Positions 1,758 through 39,684 of a stretch of 39,684 nt of DNA are shown one piece after another. The stretch spans positions 1 through 39,684 of the IMG/VR virus record IMGVR_UViG_3300005613_000171, one strand, 5' to 3'. Position 1 is the first letter of the stretch. Every line of letters begins with the position of its first letter. Both the position numbers and the translations under genes were made by a program. This stretch comes from a virus. The notes under the pieces were generated by a model, which made no database searches, was not told where the DNA came from, and was given only the letters and a program-made list of their open reading frames with translations.

Positions 1758-2654
1758 ATGGAAGAAATAATAGAACGAAAAGGAATAGGACATCCTGACA
1801 CAATATGTGACAATTTAGCTGAAGAATTAGGAAAAGAATTAATAAAAGAATATAAAAAACAATATGGAAAAGTTCAACATTATAATGTTGATAAAGTATT
1901 AGCTAGTTGTGGACAAGTAAATTATGAAAAAAGAAAAATGCTTAAACCAGTAAAAATAGTTTTTAGTGGTAACGCTACAAAACTAAAAAAAGTAAATAAA
2001 ATACTTCAAAGAGTCACTGAAAGAGTATTAAAAAAAGAGATAAGTAGAGGATTAAAATATAAAATATATAATCACATAAGTTATGGAAGCCCGGATTTAA
2101 AAAATAATTTTGATAAAAGAAAATGCAATGATACAAGTTTTAGTGTTGGAAGTTTATTAACAAAAAAAGAAAGAATGGTTCTTAATATAGGTGAAGAACT
2201 TGAAATTTTAAGTGATAATAATCATATAGGTACTGATTATAAAATAATGTTGATAAATGATAAAATAGTGATAGCATTAGCATTAATATTAAATAATAGG
2301 AAAGAATATAATAAAGAGAAATTATTATTAAAAAAGTATTTAGAAAACAAGTTTAACATAGACATAAATATTAATATGGCTGATAATAAATTTACTTGTT
2401 TTAATACTATAACAGGCACAAGTTTAGAGCAAGGAGACGCTGGAATGACAGGTAGAGGAAACAGGTATAACGGGTTAATAACTCCAATGAAACCGATGAC
2501 AATGGAAGCATATTATGGAAAAAACAATATTACACATATAGGAAGAATATATCAAGAAAGGGCTTTTAATATTGCTCAAAAAGAAAAATGTAATGTTTTG
2601 ATGATTAATAATATAGGGGGTAACATAAATAAACCAACAATAATAAAATGGTAA
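1758..2654 (+). CDS. S-adenosylmethionine synthetase, archaeal type, shortened
   Basis: Makes S-adenosylmethionine from methionine and ATP. The archaeal MAT signature is clear: GHPDTICD at residues 11-18, a YNVDKVLASCGQ segment equivalent to the archaeal NVDKG region, SGNATK, and the long C-terminal signature from residue 226 (GDAGMTGRGNRYNGLITP, then MTMEAYYGKN and HIGRIYQ). Cellular archaeal enzymes are about 400 residues, so at 298 this one has lost internal segments while keeping the conserved ends. The start has a GAGGT ribosome site 13 bases upstream. It sits with a DNA methyltransferase and DNA polymerase, so it probably feeds viral DNA methylation. Activity of the short form is unproven. 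Confidence 0.92.
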   Translation: MEEIIERKGIGHPDTICDNLAEELGKELIKEYKKQYGKVQHYNVDKVLASCGQVNYEKRKMLKPVKIVFSGNATKLKKVNKILQRVTERVLKKEISRGLKYKIYNHISYGSPDLKNNFDKRKCNDTSFSVGSLLTKKERMVLNIGEELEILSDNNHIGTDYKIMLINDKIVIALALILNNRKEYNKEKLLLKKYLENKFNIDININMADNKFTCFNTITGTSLEQGDAGMTGRGNRYNGLITPMKPMTMEAYYGKNNITHIGRIYQERAFNIAQKEKCNVLMINNIGGNINKPTIIKW

Positions 2655-2676
2655 CAATAAATTATAAAGAATTAAA

Positions 2677-4419
2677 ATGATTGTTTTTGATATCGAAACA
2701 AGTACGAAAGGTGAACCTAACCCACAAGTTGATAAACTTGAATATATTGGTTTTTATGATTTAAAAAATAAGGAGTGCATCATATATGATAAGAATCAAA
2801 AAGAAGAAATAAAAAAGGTGTTCAAGAAGCATCGAATAATAATAAGTTATAATGGTAACAATTATGATATACCCATTCTTAAAAGAGAAGGATTATATAA
2901 TAATAATCATATAAGCATAGACCTTTATCAAGTACTAAAAAAGAGAGGAGAATATATAGGATTAAGAAATGAGTCATTAAGTTTGAAAAATGTAGCTAAA
3001 AAACTAAATCTTGCAGAACAAAAGCAGGACGATTTCGATTACCAATTATTAAATAAGAAAGATAAGACAAGAGAAGAAATAGGATATATCAAGAAATATT
3101 TAGAACAAGACCTTAAAACAACAACAAAACTATTTGAGCACATACATAACTTTTTTGAACCATTCAAAGAATACGTGAACGATTATAACAAGAAAACAAT
3201 GAAATGGTTAACTTGCAGCATAGCAAGCTTCGCCTACAAAGCAATATGCAATATGTGTAATATTAAAGAAGAATATGACGATAATACGCATTCGAAAACA
3301 TATGAAGGAGGGTATGTTACAGAACCAATAAAAGCTTACGCGAGTAACGTTATACTTTTTGATTTTAGTAGTTTATACCCTTTCTGCTTCGCACAATGCA
3401 ACCTATTCAGTCCACAAAACGACGGGTGGACAAACAAAAAAATAGGAATGAAAGGGTACTATAATCCAGATAATCAAGGAAGAATAGAACAAGCATTAAT
3501 GAAATTATACAAGCAAAGATATGAGTACAAGAAAAAAGGTGATAAAAGAGAGTACACAATCAAAATAATCATAAACTCATTATATGGGGCAGCAGCTAAC
3601 CCAGTATTCAAAAACTTATATAATAGGACAGCAGCGAGGGATTGTACAGCAATAGCGAGATATTGCATAAAAATGGCTAGAAAAATATTCACAAAAGCAG
3701 GGTATACCTGTCTTTATTCAGATACTGACTCGATTTATGTAGAACTAAATAAAAAACAAATAAGAGAAACAGCCGAGCAAGTAGCTGATTACATAATTAA
3801 CACAATACAAAAAGAGTTTTTATTCAAAGAAGAAATGTTTAAGTTCAAAATAGATGATGAAATCAAGCATATATGGTTCTTTAAAAAGAATGATAAGTTC
3901 TTGAAAAAAATGTATATATATGTAACAAAACAAGATAAACTAGTTATTAAAGGGTTACCATTAATAAAAAATGATGGTAGCAAAATAGGTTACCACATTT
4001 TTAATAAGTATATGAAGCAATCATTAATAAAAGGGAATAATGATTTTAAGTATAATGATATTAAGAAATGGGTTTATGATGAATTAAACAATGATATAAG
4101 TCTTGTTAGTAGAGAGTTCAAGGTTAAAAGTTTTGATTGGTACAAGCTTTCTTCTCAATTGCAAGCTCAGATAAGTAAGAAGTACGGGTTTGGAAGGCAT
4201 TTATTAATTTGTAATGACTCGTACGGGGTGGGTATTGGTAAAAAGTATTGTACTATTAAAGAGTTTAAGGAGCAAGGATTGGGTATTCATAATATTGATT
4301 TGTCTAAGTTTTGGAGTGAGATGAAATTGTTTATTGATGATTACCCTGCTAGTGTGAAAGTTAAAAGAAATAAGAGGAGGGTTAATAATCAAAAATTACT
4401 AGAAAAATGGATAAATTAA
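2677..4419 (+). CDS. Family B DNA polymerase with 3'-5' exonuclease, compact
   Basis: Replicative polymerase, 580 residues. Exonuclease motifs: Exo I FDIET (4-8), Exo II SYNGNNYDIP (57-66), Exo III YLEQD (141-145). A YEGG linker motif is at 209-212. Polymerase motifs: A DFSSLYP (229-235), B K-x3-NSLYG (296-303), C YSDTDS (347-352), then a KKMYIY/KGLP thumb motif. Only about 60 residues separate motifs A and B, so there is no room for the TPR2 insertion of protein-primed polymerases. With primase genes in the same genome, RNA/DNA priming is more likely. It overlaps the next gene by 13 bases. At 580 residues it is short; cellular family B enzymes are commonly about 770 or more. Confidence 0.96.
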   Translation: MIVFDIETSTKGEPNPQVDKLEYIGFYDLKNKECIIYDKNQKEEIKKVFKKHRIIISYNGNNYDIPILKREGLYNNNHISIDLYQVLKKRGEYIGLRNESLSLKNVAKKLNLAEQKQDDFDYQLLNKKDKTREEIGYIKKYLEQDLKTTTKLFEHIHNFFEPFKEYVNDYNKKTMKWLTCSIASFAYKAICNMCNIKEEYDDNTHSKTYEGGYVTEPIKAYASNVILFDFSSLYPFCFAQCNLFSPQNDGWTNKKIGMKGYYNPDNQGRIEQALMKLYKQRYEYKKKGDKREYTIKIIINSLYGAAANPVFKNLYNRTAARDCTAIARYCIKMARKIFTKAGYTCLYSDTDSIYVELNKKQIRETAEQVADYIINTIQKEFLFKEEMFKFKIDDEIKHIWFFKKNDKFLKKMYIYVTKQDKLVIKGLPLIKNDGSKIGYHIFNKYMKQSLIKGNNDFKYNDIKKWVYDELNNDISLVSREFKVKSFDWYKLSSQLQAQISKKYGFGRHLLICNDSYGVGIGKKYCTIKEFKEQGLGIHNIDLSKFWSEMKLFIDDYPASVKVKRNKRRVNNQKLLEKWIN

Positions 4420-5790: not shown

Positions 5791-5940
5791 ATGATTATTG
5801 ACGTTGAAAAGTTCACTAAACCTGAATTGCAAAGAGAAGTAGATAGATTGTTGGATAGACTTAAATACGTGGAGTCTGAGAATAAACAATTGAGAACAGA
5901 AATTAAAATGGTGAAATATGCTAGTAAAACTAAAAGCTAA
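5791..5940 (+). CDS. Small coiled-coil protein (49 aa)
   Basis: Nearly the whole protein is a heptad-like helix (LQREVDRLLDRLKYVESENK). No cysteines or membrane segment. Function unknown. It starts 2 bases after the upstream stop and overlaps the next gene by 23 bases, so it belongs to the same tightly packed operon. Confidence 0.65.
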   Translation: MIIDVEKFTKPELQREVDRLLDRLKYVESENKQLRTEIKMVKYASKTKS

Positions 5941-6187
5941 TAATAAAACAATAATACTTGGCACTCACACTAATATTGTGTGGATTAGAATGCAGAACTG
6001 TATTGATAATAATCAAGGTAATGTTGGAAAGTATGGTTTAGAAGAAATTCTTGATTTTATTGTTAAAGAATTACTTTTTTTGGGTTGGAAGATTGTTTAT
6101 GATTATGATAAAGCACGAGATAGTAATTGTAAGGTTCATGTTGATTTAGAATTAATTATTGATAATAACAAGTTAACGTTTCAGTAA
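5918..6187 (+). CDS. Hypothetical protein (89 aa)
   Basis: Not recognised. Alternating short strands and helices (TIILGTHTNIVWIRMQNCID, then YGLEEILDFIVKELLFLGWK) suggest a small alpha/beta fold. The final strand contains VHVDLELIID. It overlaps the upstream coiled-coil gene and is the last gene before the promoter-like region in front of the large terminase. Confidence 0.7.
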   Translation: MLVKLKANNKTIILGTHTNIVWIRMQNCIDNNQGNVGKYGLEEILDFIVKELLFLGWKIVYDYDKARDSNCKVHVDLELIIDNNKLTFQ

Positions 6188-6190
6188 GGT

Positions 6191-6250
6191 TATAAGATAT
6201 AGTATATTATATATATTATAAATAAGTTATAGTTAATAGTATAGAAAGTT
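6191..6250 (+). promoter_or_regulatory. Putative promoter of the large terminase gene
   Basis: This AT-only region contains AGTATATTATATATATTATA (6201-6220) followed by AATAAGTTATAG. It resembles the other TATA-type elements but is not identical to either class. The terminase ATG at 6256 has no good ribosome site, so a short or leaderless transcript starting here is plausible. Confidence 0.5.
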
Positions 6251-6255
6251 TATAA

Positions 6256-7797
6256 ATGAGAATAACTTATGACCAACTAAAAACTGTATTGGAAACAACT
6301 CCAAAAAAGCATTTAAAAGCAACACTGAAATATATATTCTCATTCAAAGAAAACATAGACACGTTCGGATACTACTTCTTTCCAGACGCGTGCACGAGCA
6401 AAAGCGCAAAGTTTCACAAAGAAATACACAAACTAATATTAAACAAAGAACACGTAGCAATAGCAGCGCCAAGAGGACACGCCAAGAGCACAGTAGTGGG
6501 ACTAATAGACTTATCATTTATAATAGTAAACAAACTAAAAAAGTATATAGTATACATGAGTCAGAATCACGAAAAAACAATACAATTCGTAGAACCAATC
6601 AGTACAACGTTCAAAACAAATGAGAGAATCAAATTCGTGTACGGAGACCTAAGCCCTAAATCATTAAAAGATGAAATAACAAAAAAGGATAGACAAGACT
6701 TAATAGATATAGGTGGAGTAAGAATACAAGCAGTATCGTTTAACAGAAATATTAGAGGATTCAAATATATTAATCAGAGACCAGACTTAATCATTGGTGA
6801 CGACATAGATGATGATGAGAGAGTAATAAACCCTGACCTTAGAGCAAGGGACAGAGATAAATTAATGAAACAAGTATTACCATCGTTATCTGAAGGCGGG
6901 CAGTTTAAGATGATAGGTACAAACTTACACTTTGACTGTTTATTAATGAACAGAATAAAGCATTATAATGGAAGAATCTATAAGGCTTGTGAACTAAATG
7001 ATGATGGAAGCATAGACGAATCAACAATTCTTTGGCCCGAGTTCTGGAGTGTTGAAAGATTAGAAAAAGAAAAAAAGAATATTGGGTCAGTTGCGTTTTC
7101 ATCAGAATACCTTAATAATCCTATTGAGAACACTGCTAGTATTATTAAAAGGGTTTGGATTAAGAAGTGTTTGGATGAATCATTATCTTATAAGGAAGCT
7201 AAAGCTATTAAGTATGAGGAGAAGAAGCAGGGTTGTGATTTCGCTTTTGGTGACAGAGTTATTAATGATAGGAGTGCTTATATATGTGTTGGTTCAAATC
7301 CTGGTGATAAATACACAATATTTGATATTACTCCTTTTAAAGGATTGTCTATAACAGACCAGTTTAACAGGATAAGTAAAAGACATAACGTGTTCGAACT
7401 AGATGAGACTGTTATGGAAGAGAATAGCATTAAAAGTATGACAAAAGAGTTATATAAGTGGAATTTCGATTACTACCTTATATGGACTGGTGCAAGTGAT
7501 ACGGCTGCGAAACTAAAACCCACAGCTGAGTTCCAAGATAAAAGACACACTGTGAGTAAAAAGAATATGATTCTTAGATTAAGCGCTTTATTTGAGAATG
7601 GAGAGTTCAGAATTCCTTATAAGACCGAATCTGATAAACGTATTACTGATGAATTAATCGGTGAATTGTTAACTTTTGCTTTGGATAACGGTAAATTAGT
7701 TGAGATTGGTGTTCATGCTGATTTGCCTATTGCGTTAGCGATGTGTATGGAGCGTATGAGTAATGATGATTCAGGAGGCGAAATGGTATGGATATAA
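6256..7797 (+). CDS. terL: Terminase large subunit (packaging ATPase-nuclease)
   Basis: Motor that pumps DNA into the prohead and cuts it. The ATPase domain has Walker A APRGHAKST at residues 71-79 and Walker B LIIGDDIDDDE near 178-188, the DD-x-DDD being typical of phage terminases. The C-terminal half has an RNase H-like nuclease pattern beginning at GCDFAFGDR (around residue 327). At 513 residues the length is normal for the family. The putative small subunit lies upstream and the portal downstream, but unusually a 6-kb adhesin block separates it from the portal. Little Shine-Dalgarno signal is visible ahead of the start. Confidence 0.96.
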   Translation: MRITYDQLKTVLETTPKKHLKATLKYIFSFKENIDTFGYYFFPDACTSKSAKFHKEIHKLILNKEHVAIAAPRGHAKSTVVGLIDLSFIIVNKLKKYIVYMSQNHEKTIQFVEPISTTFKTNERIKFVYGDLSPKSLKDEITKKDRQDLIDIGGVRIQAVSFNRNIRGFKYINQRPDLIIGDDIDDDERVINPDLRARDRDKLMKQVLPSLSEGGQFKMIGTNLHFDCLLMNRIKHYNGRIYKACELNDDGSIDESTILWPEFWSVERLEKEKKNIGSVAFSSEYLNNPIENTASIIKRVWIKKCLDESLSYKEAKAIKYEEKKQGCDFAFGDRVINDRSAYICVGSNPGDKYTIFDITPFKGLSITDQFNRISKRHNVFELDETVMEENSIKSMTKELYKWNFDYYLIWTGASDTAAKLKPTAEFQDKRHTVSKKNMILRLSALFENGEFRIPYKTESDKRITDELIGELLTFALDNGKLVEIGVHADLPIALAMCMERMSNDDSGGEMVWI

Positions 7798-7821
7798 AAA
7801 CGAGGTGGTTACTAAATTAAA

Positions 7822-8001
7822 ATGGTTGGAATAGGAGATTATTACGAATTATTAAGTTGCCCAAAATGTGGTGGTAGCAAGAGTCACAAAAGCCACACAT
7901 ACGGTTCTTATAAAGTGTATTTTAACGGTGACATTATGAAATTGAAGTGTAAAGCGTGTTGTTACGTTCAAAGATTTCGTATAATACGGGGAGGAATATA
8001 A
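7822..8001 (+). CDS. Zinc-ribbon microprotein (59 aa)
   Basis: The protein contains two cysteine pairs, CPKC near the N-terminus and CKAC near the C-terminus, separated by a beta-rich stretch (YGSYKVYFNGDIMKLK). This is the classic zinc-ribbon layout. ATG at 7822 is preceded by GAGGTGG. It ends 2 bases before the next zinc-ribbon gene. Small zinc ribbons bind nucleic acid or protein; which applies here is unknown. Confidence 0.75.
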   Translation: MVGIGDYYELLSCPKCGGSKSHKSHTYGSYKVYFNGDIMKLKCKACCYVQRFRIIRGGI

Positions 8002-8003
8002 AA

Positions 8004-8201
8004 ATGGAAGAAGAAAAAGCAAAATGTGAAAAATGCGGTGACACAAATGTTCATTATAGAAAAGGTTGTTTGACTTGTGGTTATAATGGAGAAGCGCAAG
8101 AAGAAACATTAATTAACATTCATAATGAAATGAAAGCTATAAATATAAAATTTGACAAGATGATAACTTTATTAAAACGTCTTGTTGATAAAATGGAGTA
8201 G
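8004..8201 (+). CDS. Zinc-ribbon plus helix microprotein (65 aa)
   Basis: CEKCGDTN and CLTCGYNG form a short zinc ribbon, followed by one long amphipathic helix (MKAINIKFDKMITLLKRLVD). I chose ATG 8004 because GGGGAGGA lies just upstream. An upstream in-frame start would run back through the previous gene. The helix may mediate oligomerisation. Function unknown. Confidence 0.75.
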   Translation: MEEEKAKCEKCGDTNVHYRKGCLTCGYNGEAQEETLINIHNEMKAINIKFDKMITLLKRLVDKME

Positions 8202-8212
8202 GAGGAAATAAA

Positions 8213-32182: not shown

Positions 32183-32662
32183 ATGAAAAAAGCATTAATA
32201 GGAATAATAGCAGCAACATTATTAACTAATTGTTCTAATAATAATTATTTAGGAACACATACAAATGTTGATTTTAGACAAAAAGATAAAAGATTACACG
32301 CAGGAGTTAGCGCAGTATTAATGCCGACATTTGATGCAGCATATTTATTAACAATGCCGGAAATGAATAAAGATAAAAGATTATTATTATCTTATGCTTC
32401 AACATTAGGAGTAGGAGCTAGTAAAGAATTATATGATAAATACTTTGGCAATACTGGTTATAGTTATTTAGATATGGAAGCTAACGTGTATGGTGCTACA
32501 ACTGGTTTAATTGTTACTCCTTTTCTTGATAGATTCTTTAAGTATGTTTTTAGTAAAACAGTTGATGGTGGTATTAGAAAAGAAATTAATAAAGAGAAAA
32601 AGAAGCTTGATAATATTGAAGATAAACTTGAAGAAATGAAGAAGATGCTTGAAGATGACTAA
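32183..32662 (+). CDS. Putative lipoprotein, YfiM/DUF2279-like (159 aa)
   Basis: MKKALIGIIAATLLTNC reads as a signal peptide with a lipid-attachment Cys at residue 17, although Asn at -1 is unusual. After it, DKRLHAGVSAVLMP, ASTLGVGASKELYDKYFG and YLDMEANVYGATTGLIVTP follow the pattern of YfiM-type proteins, in which a predicted helical membrane-associated domain precedes a Lys/Glu-rich coiled coil (here residues 130-159). Surface or membrane location is implied. Function unknown in viruses; superinfection exclusion or lysis are guesses. Confidence 0.65.
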   Translation: MKKALIGIIAATLLTNCSNNNYLGTHTNVDFRQKDKRLHAGVSAVLMPTFDAAYLLTMPEMNKDKRLLLSYASTLGVGASKELYDKYFGNTGYSYLDMEANVYGATTGLIVTPFLDRFFKYVFSKTVDGGIRKEINKEKKKLDNIEDKLEEMKKMLEDD

Positions 32663-33680: not shown

Positions 33681-33881
33681 ATGGATTATGAAAAAGAACT
33701 AAATATGGAACTTAAAAAGAAAAAATTATTTTTTTGTTTTGAGAAAGTAAAGAATACTAAGTTTTTTTGTTTATATAAGATTTGTGAAAATAATAATAAG
33801 AGTTTAGTTTATGGTTGTGAGAATATTGATAGTTTGTATAAATTCTTATTTATATTATTGCAACATTATAATTTAAAATAA
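33681..33881 (+). CDS. Hypothetical small protein (66 aa)
   Basis: AAAGGTGG precedes the ATG. Contains a Lys-rich start, aromatic strands (KKLFFCFEKVKNTKFFCLYK) and a helical hydrophobic end (IDSLYKFLFILLQHYNLK). Three cysteines but no zinc-site spacing. Possibly membrane-associated through its end. Not recognised. Confidence 0.6.
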   Translation: MDYEKELNMELKKKKLFFCFEKVKNTKFFCLYKICENNNKSLVYGCENIDSLYKFLFILLQHYNLK

Positions 33882-33893
33882 GGAGTTAATAAA

Positions 33894-35039
33894 ATGAGCA
33901 AAACAATAATAATATGCGACAAAAACAAAGAACTAATAAAAAAAGTAAAAAAACTAATAAAAGAAAACAAAAAAAACAAAGCAGAAATAACACTAAAAGC
34001 ACACAATATGGACATACTAAAATGTAAAAAGAAATACCCAAACGCTAAAATAGTAACAGCAAGTAATCCTAGTTTTAATGCAAGAGGAGGACTAGACCTA
34101 ATACTAAAAAATATGTATCCAACCGAGTGGGAACAAGCAAAAGAATTTAATTTCACAGATAACTTATTTTTTACAATAAGTGTTAACAAATATATTAAAT
34201 CAACAAAGAAGATAATACAACGAGCATTAATAGGAATATACGCATACAGACACATACACGATTTTATATTAACAGGAATAGGAACAGCAATAGGCGGATT
34301 AAAAGAAAACGATTTTATTAATGAATTACAAAAAATATTAAACAATAACCTAAAAAGGAGTGACCTAAAAGGGTGTAACCTAAAAGGGAGTGACCTAAAA
34401 GGGAGTGACCTAAGCGAGAGTGACCTAAGCGAGAGTAACCTAAGATGGAGTAACCTAAGCGAGAGTGACCTAAGATGGAGTAACCTAAGCAAGAGTGACC
34501 TAAGATGGAGTAACCTAAGCAAGAGTAACCTAAGCAAGAGTGACCTAAGATGGAGTAACCTAAGCAAGAGTAACCTAAGCGAGAGTAACCTAAGCAAGAG
34601 TGACCTAAGATGGAGTAACCTAAGCAAGAGTAACCTAAGCGAGAGTAACCTAAGCGAGAGTGACCTAAGCGAGAGTAACCTAAGCGAGAGTAAAAACTTC
34701 CCAAACAACAATCACAAATTCTTAAAAGACTTCAAAAAAACAAACAAAGGATACATAGTATACAAAGCCTTCGGAAACACGTTTTACACAGCACCAAAAG
34801 AATGGAAATTAAAAAAAGATAGTATAATAACAGAAATATGCAACCCAAACAAACAAAACGAGTGCGGTTGCGGAGTAAACTTTGGAACACTAAACTGGAT
34901 AAAAGAAAACCTAGAAAAAGAAAACATCGAAGTATGGGAATGCTTATTATTATTTGAAGATATGATAAACCTATGTGTGCCATACAATTATGACGGGAAA
35001 GCAAGATGTGAGAAACTAAAATTAATCAAAAAGGTGTAA
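33894..35039 (+). CDS. Macro-domain-like protein fused to pentapeptide repeats and a C-terminal domain (381 aa)
   Basis: Three parts. Residues 1-150 look like a macro (ADP-ribose-binding) domain: KIVTASNPSFNARGGLD parallels the N-x-G-GG-D loop, and FILTGIGTAIGGLKENDF parallels the second phosphate loop. Residues 156-265 are 22 perfect pentapeptide repeats of the S-(D/N)-L-x-x type, which fold as a right-handed beta helix. Residues 270-381 (GYIVYKAFGNTFYTAPKEW; NECGCGVNFGTLNWI; VPYNYDGKARCEKLKL) resemble a domain, perhaps DUF5758, found after pentapeptide repeats in viral proteins. Possible role: removing or binding ADP-ribose made by host defence. The macro call is moderate. Confidence 0.75.
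   Translation: MSKTIIICDKNKELIKKVKKLIKENKKNKAEITLKAHNMDILKCKKKYPNAKIVTASNPSFNARGGLDLILKNMYPTEWEQAKEFNFTDNLFFTISVNKYIKSTKKIIQRALIGIYAYRHIHDFILTGIGTAIGGLKENDFINELQKILNNNLKRSDLKGCNLKGSDLKGSDLSESDLSESNLRWSNLSESDLRWSNLSKSDLRWSNLSKSNLSKSDLRWSNLSKSNLSESNLSKSDLRWSNLSKSNLSESNLSESDLSESNLSESKNFPNNNHKFLKDFKKTNKGYIVYKAFGNTFYTAPKEWKLKKDSIITEICNPNKQNECGCGVNFGTLNWIKENLEKENIEVWECLLLFEDMINLCVPYNYDGKARCEKLKLIKKV
34359..34688 (+). repeat. 22 tandem 15-bp units encoding pentapeptide repeats
   Basis: The unit AGTGACCTAAGCGAG and close variants (AGTAACCTAAGCAAG, AGTGACCTAAGATGG) recur without interruption. Codons are nearly identical between units, so the array expanded recently. A larger period of about 60 bases is also visible in the second half. 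Both antisense frames stay open through it, which creates false Leu/Arg-rich reading frames. Confidence 0.95.
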
Positions 35040-35044
35040 TGAAA

Positions 35045-35131
35045 ATGAATAAACAAGAAATAATAAATGAACTAAAAAAAATGTGTTGGGAATGTCAAAA
35101 AATAGATAGGAAACAAGAAAATGAATATTAA
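35045..35131 (+). CDS. Microprotein (28 aa)
   Basis: Starts 5 bases after the macro-domain gene, with AAGGTG upstream in its last codons. Helical, with a CWEC pair (NELKKMCWECQKIDRKQENE). Overlaps the primase start by 11 bases, so it may serve mainly for translational coupling. Confidence 0.45.
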   Translation: MNKQEIINELKKMCWECQKIDRKQENEY

Positions 35132-36005
35132 ATTATTAGAAAAATTTTGGAATTGGTTACGAACTGATTATCCTAGAGATTCTTATACAGAGATAAAACT
35201 GATGAATATTGAAGATGATAGGTTGTATAAACAGGTTCAATGCTTTCAAGAAGAACATGATATAGTTATTAGAAAAAATTGTCAGTTTTTTATTAAAGAA
35301 TTTAAAGATTTATGGCAAATATTAAATTATAAAGCAGGAATTTTTGATAAATATTCTAAAATATGTTATTCAATTTCGCCTAAGTTTTTTGATGAAAAAG
35401 GAGATATATCAGGCAAATATGACCATATGAAAATAGCTGATATGATTTTTTTAGACATAGAAAAAATAGAACATTCGTCATTAACTGAAGAAGATGAACC
35501 TTTCATAAAACAATTCATTAATAATGTAATGGATAGATTAAGACAATATGGTTTAACAAAACCTGTAGTAGTTCATAGTGGTGGAGGGTATCATTTGTTG
35601 TATAAAGTTAAACGAATGAAATTTGATAAAGGTAGAAAATTAGGATATAAACAATTTATATCTGAATTAGAATTTTTAAACTCAAAATTGTATAAAATTG
35701 ACCACTGTGTGGATTTGAGTCGTTGCATTGGATTACCAGAGACCTTTAATAATAAACGTGGTAAAAAAGTAACTATAATAGGACCTATTCCAAAAGAACC
35801 AATTGATGATTATTATATTAAGAGTAAAAGAATGGATTTAATAAAAAAATTAGAAAAACAATTAAAAGGAAGAAAAATCGACACAGGAAGTAATGAGTAT
35901 TTTGCTGGCTATGTTGATGGTTGGAATGATAGAGAAGCAAAAGTAAAACATAGTGAAAGTGATTGGGAAGAATTAATGTCTGAAGAAGATAGAAAATTGA
36001 GGTAA
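35121..36005 (+). CDS. Archaeo-eukaryotic-type primase (AEP), stand-alone (294 aa)
   Basis: Motif I is MIFLDIEKI (D112, E114), motif II is VVHSGGGYHLLYK (H158), and motif III is HCVDLSRCIGLPETFNNKRG (D198), the order of the AEP catalytic core. The GGGYH and LPxTxNxK phrases are typical of prim-pol enzymes from viruses and plasmids. No helicase or zinc domain is fused. N-terminal 100 residues and a short charged C-terminus are unassigned. A second primase is fused to a helicase at 37289. This one may prime a different strand or act as a polymerase. Confidence 0.85.
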   Translation: MNIKLLEKFWNWLRTDYPRDSYTEIKLMNIEDDRLYKQVQCFQEEHDIVIRKNCQFFIKEFKDLWQILNYKAGIFDKYSKICYSISPKFFDEKGDISGKYDHMKIADMIFLDIEKIEHSSLTEEDEPFIKQFINNVMDRLRQYGLTKPVVVHSGGGYHLLYKVKRMKFDKGRKLGYKQFISELEFLNSKLYKIDHCVDLSRCIGLPETFNNKRGKKVTIIGPIPKEPIDDYYIKSKRMDLIKKLEKQLKGRKIDTGSNEYFAGYVDGWNDREAKVKHSESDWEELMSEEDRKLR

Positions 36006-37296: not shown

Positions 37297-39684
37297 ACAA
37301 AAGGATTATATTAAACGATTAAAAGAGATTAGTATAAGTCCTTTGTTTGGAGCAATAAATTATTTTAATAACAAACAAAAGAAGTGGGTACCTGGAAAAA
37401 GAGAAGATTTAAACAAGCGAGAATATTGGGACCATATAACAGTAGCAAGTAACGCTGTTCATTACGAGTTAGACGCTAGAAGTTACGCTGCTAATTATAA
37501 GATAGCTAAAAAAATTATTAGTGTTCTTGACAGTAGAGGTTGGGATTATAATATATTTATTAGTAGTAGAAAAGGCATTCATATTGAAACATATTTTAAT
37601 AAGCCTGAATTTAAGAATCAAGAACAAAGAGACTTATTCACTAATGCTATGAGTTATGGTTTGTCTTTTAAACATATTCGTTTCTGGTTATGGAATCTTA
37701 TTCTTGATGAAGCCGCAATATCTAAAGAATTGCGTGGTAATGGTAAAATAATTGATTCTAATTGTATAAACTTTGATGATTTACAAGATAAAGACAGATT
37801 ATTAAGGGTTTGTGGTGGTTGCAAGAAGTATTATAATAAGGTTACAGATGAAGAAGAAATATATTATAAAACTTACGTAAACAATGCAGATTTCAAAGAT
37901 AAATCAATAAAGGTAAAAGTATTAGATGATGTAAAATATCCTGTTAAAACAAGTTTATTTACGTTTAACATATACGAGTTCTGTGAATTCTTAGAAAACT
38001 ATGTAGAAAACGCTAAAAATAGCGATATAGAACAACTAAAAAAGATAGATTTAACACAAGAAGGTGGATATATAAATCTAGAAACAGTAAAACTAATAAG
38101 AGAAGGATTAGGAAGAGGACAAAGAAGTATAGGAGCACAAATCTTAGCAATAGCAATGAGTAATGATGAACTAGATTTAAAAACTCAAAAAACAATAATG
38201 AAAGATTATGTTTCTAAATGCTCACAAGTAGGAGAACCATTCACAACAGAAGAAGCAAATCAATGGATATACTGGGTTCAAAGTCAAGAACACGTGTTCT
38301 GGAACTGTGGATTAGCAGAGCAAGCAGGGTTACACGATGCGAGCTTATGTGATTATTGCAAGAAAAAACATAAAGAAGCTTACGATTTCTTATATAATAA
38401 AAAGATATTACAAGAAATAAAAGATGTGTTAGATAAAGAAATAATGGGTGAAGACGAAACAAAAATGTTAATGTTCCTATTAGTATTAAGTAAAGATTTT
38501 CCCTCACGAACAGGGTTACCAGGATGGAATATAAACAGTGACTCAATGAGCCAAAACATAATACTAAGCAGTGATAGCAGCAGCGGTAAAACATATATGA
38601 CAAAAAAAATACTACAATTATTCGGAGAAAAAAACAAGGATTATTACGTAATGAGTAGAATAACAAAAAATGTTCTAAATTATATGGTAGATATAAATAT
38701 GGACAAAAAAATCATATTCATAGAAGAAATACAAGGATTAGACGAAGCAACCAATCAATTAAGATTATGGATGAGTGAAGGAGAATTAACACTTAAAACA
38801 GTGGAAAAAATCAAGAACGAAGAAGGAATAGAAGTAAATATGAGCACAGACAAGTCAACAGTGGGACAACCAGTATTCATAACAAACCAAGCAGAAGGAG
38901 TAATAGAAGAACAACTAAATAATAGGTCTTGGGTACTAGGAATGGATACCACGACCAATCAAACAAGTAAGATATTAACATATCAAGACACTTTAAACAT
39001 AGGATATGATAAAATAAATGAGATAGAAATAAGAAAAATCAGGGACGCAATGAAACAATTAAAACAATACCATTTCATAATACCATACGCTGACTGGAAA
39101 GCAATGAATATACCAATAAATGATGTTAGAAGCAGGAGAGATTACCAAAAATTTTTAACATTAATAAAATGCAGTGCTTATTTACACCAAAAACAGAGAT
39201 ACATAGTGAAAGATGAGAAAGACAGAGAATACATAATATGTAGCTTTGAAGATTATAATATAGCAAAAGAGTATAGTCATAACATATTAGGAGCAACATT
39301 CAGTGGGTTAAGCATAAACCAAATAGATTTATTAAATCATATTAGGAAAAGTAATTGGTCAGAAGAATTTATGATAAGTGATTTAATGAGAAACTTAGGA
39401 AAAAGTCAAAGTCATTGGTACGGACAATTATCACAATTAGTGGATTTAGGATTCCTTACTTGTGATAAAAATATGGGAAAAAGCAACATTTATTCATTAA
39501 ATAAGAACCGAGTTGAAACAGTTGTTAACCTACCAAGTGACCTATTACTAAAAAGGGCTACCTATTATCAAGTTTTGCGATTTTTCGAAAAAAACAAGTT
39601 TACAATAATTCAAGATTGCGAAGATTCCGAAAACTCAGTAATAGCAAATGATTTTCGTAATAGGTGCGAAAACCTTTATAACCT
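37289..39684 (+). CDS. Primase-helicase, N-terminal and central parts (continues at base 1)
   Basis: 798 complete codons plus 2 bases before the window ends. The N-terminus is AEP-like: acidic ELDA (60-63), FISSRKGIHIETYF (90-103, sxH motif), and DRLLRVCGGCKKYYNK (169-184). A PriCT-like segment GLGRGQRSIGAQILAIAM (273-290) follows, then a metal-binding-looking cluster C340, H349, C354, C357. An AAA+/SF3-like helicase has Walker A SSDSSSGKTYMTKK (427-440) and Walker B KKIIFIEEIQ (473-482). A winged-helix segment lies near FMISDLMRNLGKSQSHWYGQ. Continuation at 2-340 completes a 911-residue protein. Priming and unwinding are predicted. Confidence 0.88.
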   Translation, partial: MNKQKDYIKRLKEISISPLFGAINYFNNKQKKWVPGKREDLNKREYWDHITVASNAVHYELDARSYAANYKIAKKIISVLDSRGWDYNIFISSRKGIHIETYFNKPEFKNQEQRDLFTNAMSYGLSFKHIRFWLWNLILDEAAISKELRGNGKIIDSNCINFDDLQDKDRLLRVCGGCKKYYNKVTDEEEIYYKTYVNNADFKDKSIKVKVLDDVKYPVKTSLFTFNIYEFCEFLENYVENAKNSDIEQLKKIDLTQEGGYINLETVKLIREGLGRGQRSIGAQILAIAMSNDELDLKTQKTIMKDYVSKCSQVGEPFTTEEANQWIYWVQSQEHVFWNCGLAEQAGLHDASLCDYCKKKHKEAYDFLYNKKILQEIKDVLDKEIMGEDETKMLMFLLVLSKDFPSRTGLPGWNINSDSMSQNIILSSDSSSGKTYMTKKILQLFGEKNKDYYVMSRITKNVLNYMVDINMDKKIIFIEEIQGLDEATNQLRLWMSEGELTLKTVEKIKNEEGIEVNMSTDKSTVGQPVFITNQAEGVIEEQLNNRSWVLGMDTTTNQTSKILTYQDTLNIGYDKINEIEIRKIRDAMKQLKQYHFIIPYADWKAMNIPINDVRSRRDYQKFLTLIKCSAYLHQKQRYIVKDEKDREYIICSFEDYNIAKEYSHNILGATFSGLSINQIDLLNHIRKSNWSEEFMISDLMRNLGKSQSHWYGQLSQLVDLGFLTCDKNMGKSNIYSLNKNRVETVVNLPSDLLLKRATYYQVLRFFEKNKFTIIQDCEDSENSVIANDFRNRCENLYN
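39676..39684. repeat. 9-base terminal repeat (TTATAACCT) shared with bases 1-9
   Basis: The last nine bases equal the first nine. Joined end to end they form two tandem copies preceded by CCT, a partial third. The repeat is a multiple of 3, so the reading frame holds whether one or two copies are real. It may be a leftover assembly overlap or a true tandem repeat. Confidence 0.7.

Follow-up and report, generated by a model that had tools for sequence, protein, structure and literature searches.

At least nine viral proteins share a macro-domain head joined to a repeat rod and an end domain, with the rod and the end domain swapped between members. The member described here is encoded in a 39,684-nucleotide IMG/VR virus record (IMGVR_UViG_3300005613_000171; the window, that is, the whole stretch of DNA that was analysed), which comes from a tailed virus (genes for terminase, portal, head and tail are present) and is well described by the standard genetic code. 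Its N-domain (residues 1-151) is followed by pentapeptide repeats (152-266) and a C-domain (267-381), and the parts are individually already known. Taken as a whole, the protein is in our view best explained as a macro-headed NAD/ADP-ribose counter-defence protein with a rod as spacer and an accessory end domain, a reading to which we would give an even chance. Its main features, all on the plus strand, are as follows.

33880..33885 (+): Shine-Dalgarno-like AAGGAG, 8 nt 5' of the ATG of the fusion ORF, read from the sequence
33894..35039 (+): fusion protein CDS, an intact ORF of 381 aa (macro domain, pentapeptide array, C-terminal domain)
33894..34346 (+): N-terminal macro domain, residues 1-151, as predicted by an AlphaFold2 model, Foldseek, VIA-align and a family profile
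34011..34013 (+): Asp40, aligned with the conserved Asp of the macro GDI motif (alignments A2/A5; HMMER against MacroD/YmdB)
34059..34097 (+): Loop 1, ASNPSFNARGGLD, residues 56-68, aligned to YmdB NAANPSLMGGGGVD by HMMER
34275..34298 (+): Loop 2, GIGTAIGG, residues 128-135, the predicted diphosphate-binding loop
34347..34691 (+): pentapeptide array of 23 units (S[DN]Lxx), residues 152-266, in near-identical 15-bp DNA units
34692..35036 (+): C-terminal domain, residues 267-381, a distant relative of the DUF7666-like C-domain of relative L009

The initial annotation, made from the sequence alone, had placed a macro-like domain fused to a 22-unit pentapeptide helix at 33894-35039. The coordinates agree exactly with the ORF listing of the window (plus strand, 381 aa), and both named parts hold: the array by Pfam, the macro fold by a structural model together with the family profile. 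The unit count depends on the reading, as an in-register reading gives 23 and only a stricter pattern gives 22, and the 115-residue C-domain (residues 267-381) had gone without mention. A minus-strand ORF (33866-34711) covers the repeat and looks like a by-product of it.

A structure prediction of the N-domain, to be compared with macro domains, had been proposed as a check, and the resulting AlphaFold2 model of residues 1-151 (pLDDT 80.2, pTM 0.78) has a macro fold, with a top Z of 10.8. Foldseek finds yeast Poa1p (1njr) as its best match (E=1e-4), and VIA-align places the same structure at Z 10.8 (rmsd 3.1, 145 residues aligned), with TARG1 at Z 10.2, DarG at Z 10.1 and macro domains filling nearly all of the best 50 rows. 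The N-domain alone has no trustworthy sequence match in Pfam, PHROG or PDB, and the protein has no match to Pfam Macro (PF01661) at the curated cut-off, which is a score threshold rather than a structural feature, so that it is filed at the level of the macro superfamily only; the N-domain of relative L025 reaches 22.5 bits against the cut-off of 22 once the separate pieces in its frame are added up. A profile built from nine family members (A5) does find MacroD (5fud, E=3.4e-5), YmdB (8e-4) and further macro domains among PDB sequences, and this sequence-profile link to MacroD-type enzymes supports the assignment independently of structure. Model and profile together confirm residues 1-151 as a divergent macro domain at the level of predicted fold.

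The family motif (G)DI...IVTASNPxFxxGGGLD is placed by HMMER alignments on GDI...IVNAANPSLMGGGGVD of MacroD and YmdB. Asp40 is aligned in those members whose sequence covers its position, and its equivalent in the GDI motif of macro domains is one that we take to contact adenine. Within Loop 1, Asn58 and Asp68 align with the Asn/Asp pair of MacroD and YmdB, the catalytic pair of MacroD enzymes; residues A56, S57, N58, P59, F61, G65, G66 and D68 are invariant in 9/9 members, as are G130, T131, I133 and G134 of Loop 2. That the catalytic pair is invariant throughout suggests selection for chemistry in the family. The copy studied here carries Arg64 at the first Gly of GGG (RGG, against GGG in 8/8 relatives), a replacement by which the activity of this copy may be altered, and which could weaken or change its catalysis. 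No Lys of the TARG1/DarG type is conserved at the position judged equivalent by eye, though the folds are close. As the closest folds are those of Poa1p, TARG1 and DarG but the motif is MacroD-like, the substrate cannot be read off; the pocket residues for ADP-ribose are retained, and a ligand of this kind would presumably be handled there.

Set beside the MacroD enzymes (E. coli YmdB; Oceanobacillus iheyensis MacroD, PDB 5fud/5l9k), the viral family has in common the GDI motif, the NPS..GGGxD loop and the catalytic Asn and Asp, whereas it differs in its fused repeat rod and end domain, in an N-terminal strand and helix of its own with D-x-N, in a loop 2 of the form GxGTxIGG and, in the present protein, in the Arg within the GGG loop. 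The closest folds, Poa1p (1njr), TARG1 (4j5r) and the DarG macro domain (5m3e), reach Z 10.1-10.8 with only 11-17% identity, and the catalytic residues of TARG1 and DarG are not evident by eye in the N-domain. In contrast to DarTG, a DarT partner gene was not found in the window or in the records of the eight relatives; more broadly, the nine virus records, possibly partial, showed no DarT, NADAR or KptA gene.

The array is recognised by Pfam PF00805 (Pentapeptide; E=1.7e-33, 114 bits against a cut-off of 20.2), and its DNA is highly repetitive, with 7 distinct 15-mers among the 22 units of the stricter pattern and a mean DNA identity of 0.84. Codon usage outside the repeat deviates strongly for single codons (Leu CTA 11/23 versus 53/671; Asn AAC 21/30 versus 154/613), whereas the sequence outside the repeat, taken as a whole, has a codon score that is no outlier; a description of the usage as clearly foreign was toned down for this reason. 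The C-domain has no Pfam match, DUF7666 (PF24703) included, and its fold model is unusable (pLDDT 40); its one link is to the C-domain of L009 (BLASTP, 28% over 68 aa, E=2e-5 within a four-sequence set), which itself matches DUF7666 with E=0.0024, under the cut-off, and L011 exceeds that cut-off with 66 bits. A comparison of the N- and C-domains of the protein found no direct homology between them. A circular permutation relating DUF5758 to DUF7666 was considered but not confirmed, as just one 39-column block aligns. The literature searched yielded no paper on either of these domains of unknown function.

The N-domain occurs in eight further IMG/VR virus contigs (L006, L007, L008, L009, L011, L022, L023 and L025), with 30-55% identity to the fusion protein. 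The nine-member profile finds one copy per record with E of about 4e-54 or better, values that come from the same sequences that built the profile. Behind the macro head lie pentapeptides and DUF5758 in L006, L022 and L023; pentapeptides and a DUF7666-like domain in L009 and, by the distant match, in the present protein; a hexapeptide repeat (PF00132, 4e-19) and another C-domain in L025; and a DUF7666-like domain and then other tandem repeats in L007, L008 and L011. Whether the fusion recurs in other viruses had been raised at the outset, and macro plus pentapeptides does so in four relatives (L006, L009, L022 and L023; 37-55% N-domain identity). A tree of the nine N-domains has support too weak to order the repeat swaps. 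In addition, L011 encodes at 2100-3206 a separate DUF6745 protein with a long short-period tandem repeat (SVRASVGD-type), and repeat cassettes are thus used by more than one gene of that virus.

These relatives were found only by a pattern search steered to two conserved glycine-rich loops. Among the guide alignments, A1 and A3 had invented rows and A4 had trimmed, altered copies of the relatives; their use was confined to picking patterns and confirming candidates, and none of their rows enters the evidence alignments A2, A5 and A6, which consist of real sequences only. A further alignment that guided the search contained real sequences. Plain searches with the N- and C-domains gave nothing in GenBank phages and no true relative in IMG/VR, where the single match was dismissed as an unrelated peptidase-like ORF. 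Two genome scans with the loop patterns gave no relative and tblastn with the relatives gave none in phages or plasmids, so that GenBank phages, plasmids and prokaryote genomes yielded no relative within the sensitivity of those searches.

The rear part is found without the macro head in cultured phages, as repeat-DUF5758 and DUF7666-repeat proteins. Gp55 of Mycobacterium phage Inca, whose gene lies a few genes from an immunity repressor, has pentapeptides and then DUF5758, as in L006, L022 and L023, but lacks a macro domain, and the C-domain of the present protein differs from its own. Protein WMU95219 of Clostridioides phage AR1086-1 has a DUF7666-type domain followed by tandem NTG repeats, like L011, again without a macro domain; in that genome (L052) kptA, an NAD-dependent RNA-repair gene, lies at 1-171, about 2.3 kb upstream of the DUF7666-repeat protein (2474-3421). 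As cultured phages carry the repeat plus DUF5758/DUF7666 module, a macro head was apparently added to a known module, or else lost from it elsewhere. A literature search, which covers few subscription journals, found no description of the combination or of the modular swapping.

Gene neighbourhood offers further hints, chiefly in the relatives. In L025 the stop of the macro gene overlaps the beginning of a NUDIX-domain gene (E=8e-15); the product of that gene (7059-8210) has a P-loop N-terminal part, HprK-like by eye, ahead of its C-terminal NUDIX. A gap of 3 bp separates the macro gene from a preceding gene for a NadR-like P-loop kinase in L006, which together with L025 makes 2/8 relatives with an NAD/ADP-ribose-linked gene directly adjoining, and a gene with an ArdC N-domain (anti-restriction) lies just downstream of the macro gene in L008. 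Early genes adjoin as well (ERF, YqaJ and SSB-like in L006; YqaJ in L009; Gp157 in L023), and in these relatives the macro gene sits in an early recombination or DNA-metabolism region. The L023 record has TGA within 5824-6900 exactly where its relatives have glycine (GDIF, YKVGK), and reading TGA as a sense codon makes its ORFs much longer, so this virus seems to use TGA for Gly. We take this to be the code of Gracilibacteria/Absconditabacteria, which is also our guess at its host.

No NAD-linked neighbour of the fusion ORF was seen in the window. Counter-defence-type microproteins had been claimed upstream, and three small ORFs (44, 40 and 66 aa) do lie there, but nothing marks them as counter-defence: the 44- and 66-aa ORFs have no Pfam match, and the latter also has no convincing PHROG and no PADLOC match. 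The gene after the fusion ORF (35121-36005) has a VVHSGGGYHLLYKV motif and no Pfam match; the motif resembles, we presume, that of archaeo-eukaryotic primases. Upstream, the small protein encoded at 32183-32662 begins like a lipoprotein and shows weak similarity to the predicted periplasmic lipoproteins of DUF2279 (E=6e-6, narrowly short of the cut-off). Elsewhere, the 298-aa product of 1758-2654 is an S-adenosylmethionine synthetase from the archaeal-type family PF01941; its gene adjoins that of a family B DNA polymerase (2677-4419) and lies downstream of a DNA methyltransferase gene (344-1207). The ends of the window are identical over 9 bases (TTATAACCT; 1-9 = 39676-39684), a stretch too short to demonstrate a complete circular genome.

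Under the counter-defence reading, the fusion would be a viral protein of the early type. Its head, a divergent macro domain whose ADP-ribose pocket resembles that of MacroD, would bind, and probably cleave, an ADP-ribose derivative made during an NAD+-based host defence; candidate ligands are a soluble ADP-ribose signal and ADP-ribose linked to a protein or a nucleic acid. The array would form a rigid right-handed β-helix keeping the head apart from the C-domain and may pair two molecules, and the DUF7666-like C-domain would play an accessory part, probably in targeting or regulation; these functions of rod and C-domain we infer. The Nudix, NadR-like and ArdC neighbours in the relatives fit such a role. 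Macro is the commonest ADP-ribose-processing domain in viruses, Macro and Nudix co-occur in phages, and phage domains targeting ADPr have been argued to counter mostly soluble ADP-ribose derivatives (Iyer et al., PMC9503650), a survey that nowhere mentions pentapeptides. Relatives' neighbours and these published arguments on phage macro domains make an action against host NAD/ADP-ribose-based defences plausible.

A housekeeping enzyme that recycles what RNA repair or sirtuin action leaves behind, either as an ADP-ribose-1''-phosphate phosphatase or as an O-acetyl-ADP-ribose deacetylase, and that carries the rod only as a structural appendage, would account for two of the matches, since the best single structural match, Poa1p (Z 10.8 over 145 residues), is an ADP-ribose-1''-monophosphatase and the top sequence matches of the profile are O-acetyl-ADP-ribose deacetylases. 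We nevertheless think it an unlikely alternative: a KptA/Tpt1 gene is absent from the nine virus records, possibly fragments, and such an enzyme has no obvious need of an exchangeable rod and end domain. The invariance of the Asn/Asp pair in 9/9 members speaks against a head that only reads or soaks up ADP-ribose, with the β-helix assembling several heads into a multivalent trap without catalysis; this we consider rather improbable, although Arg64 disturbs the catalytic loop of this copy. Pentapeptide helices often dimerise, which would suit such an assembly. The macro domains of Thoeris ThsA bind ADPR and IAD (PMC11204291), so that a viral binder could compete with them.

In another reading the activity resides in the array, which would mimic DNA in the manner of Qnr and MfpA and act on gyrase or some other target that binds DNA, under regulation by the macro head; DNA mimicry by the helix had indeed been suggested initially. 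With Qnr and MfpA the array has the pentapeptide β-helix in common and scores weakly with their models, as any pentapeptide array does, but far below the curated cut-offs (MfpA 25 bits against 360, Qnr 27 against 240); it is not strongly acidic, with a net charge of about -1 to -3 here and -10 to +2 in the relatives, and it has other domains attached. Since the arrays are near charge-neutral and unrelated repeats, hexapeptide and others, take their place elsewhere in the family, mimicry is unsupported and we hold it to be very improbable; the use of quite different repeats by other members argues for an exchangeable spacer or scaffold rather than a specific DNA mimic. Hardly credible, finally, is a chance juxtaposition in a recently acquired or recombined gene whose parts have no joint function: the unusual codons and the almost identical DNA repeat units suggest that the gene was acquired, or its repeat expanded, recently, but the overall codon score outside the repeat is no outlier, and the recurrence of macro plus pentapeptides in four other virus contigs largely refutes it.

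A small family from uncultured viruses with a macro head on interchangeable repeat rods would offer a new architecture for trials against NAD-based defences, Thoeris or DarTG among them. A bolder and doubtful extension is that viruses of diverse hosts build modular ADP-ribose traps from a macro head, an exchangeable solenoid and a swappable DUF5758 or DUF7666 domain, with array length and type tuned by repeat expansion; if true, this tuning would let the viruses capture or destroy immune signals derived from NAD in a multivalent manner. The fusion family would also supply the first functional clue to DUF5758 and DUF7666.
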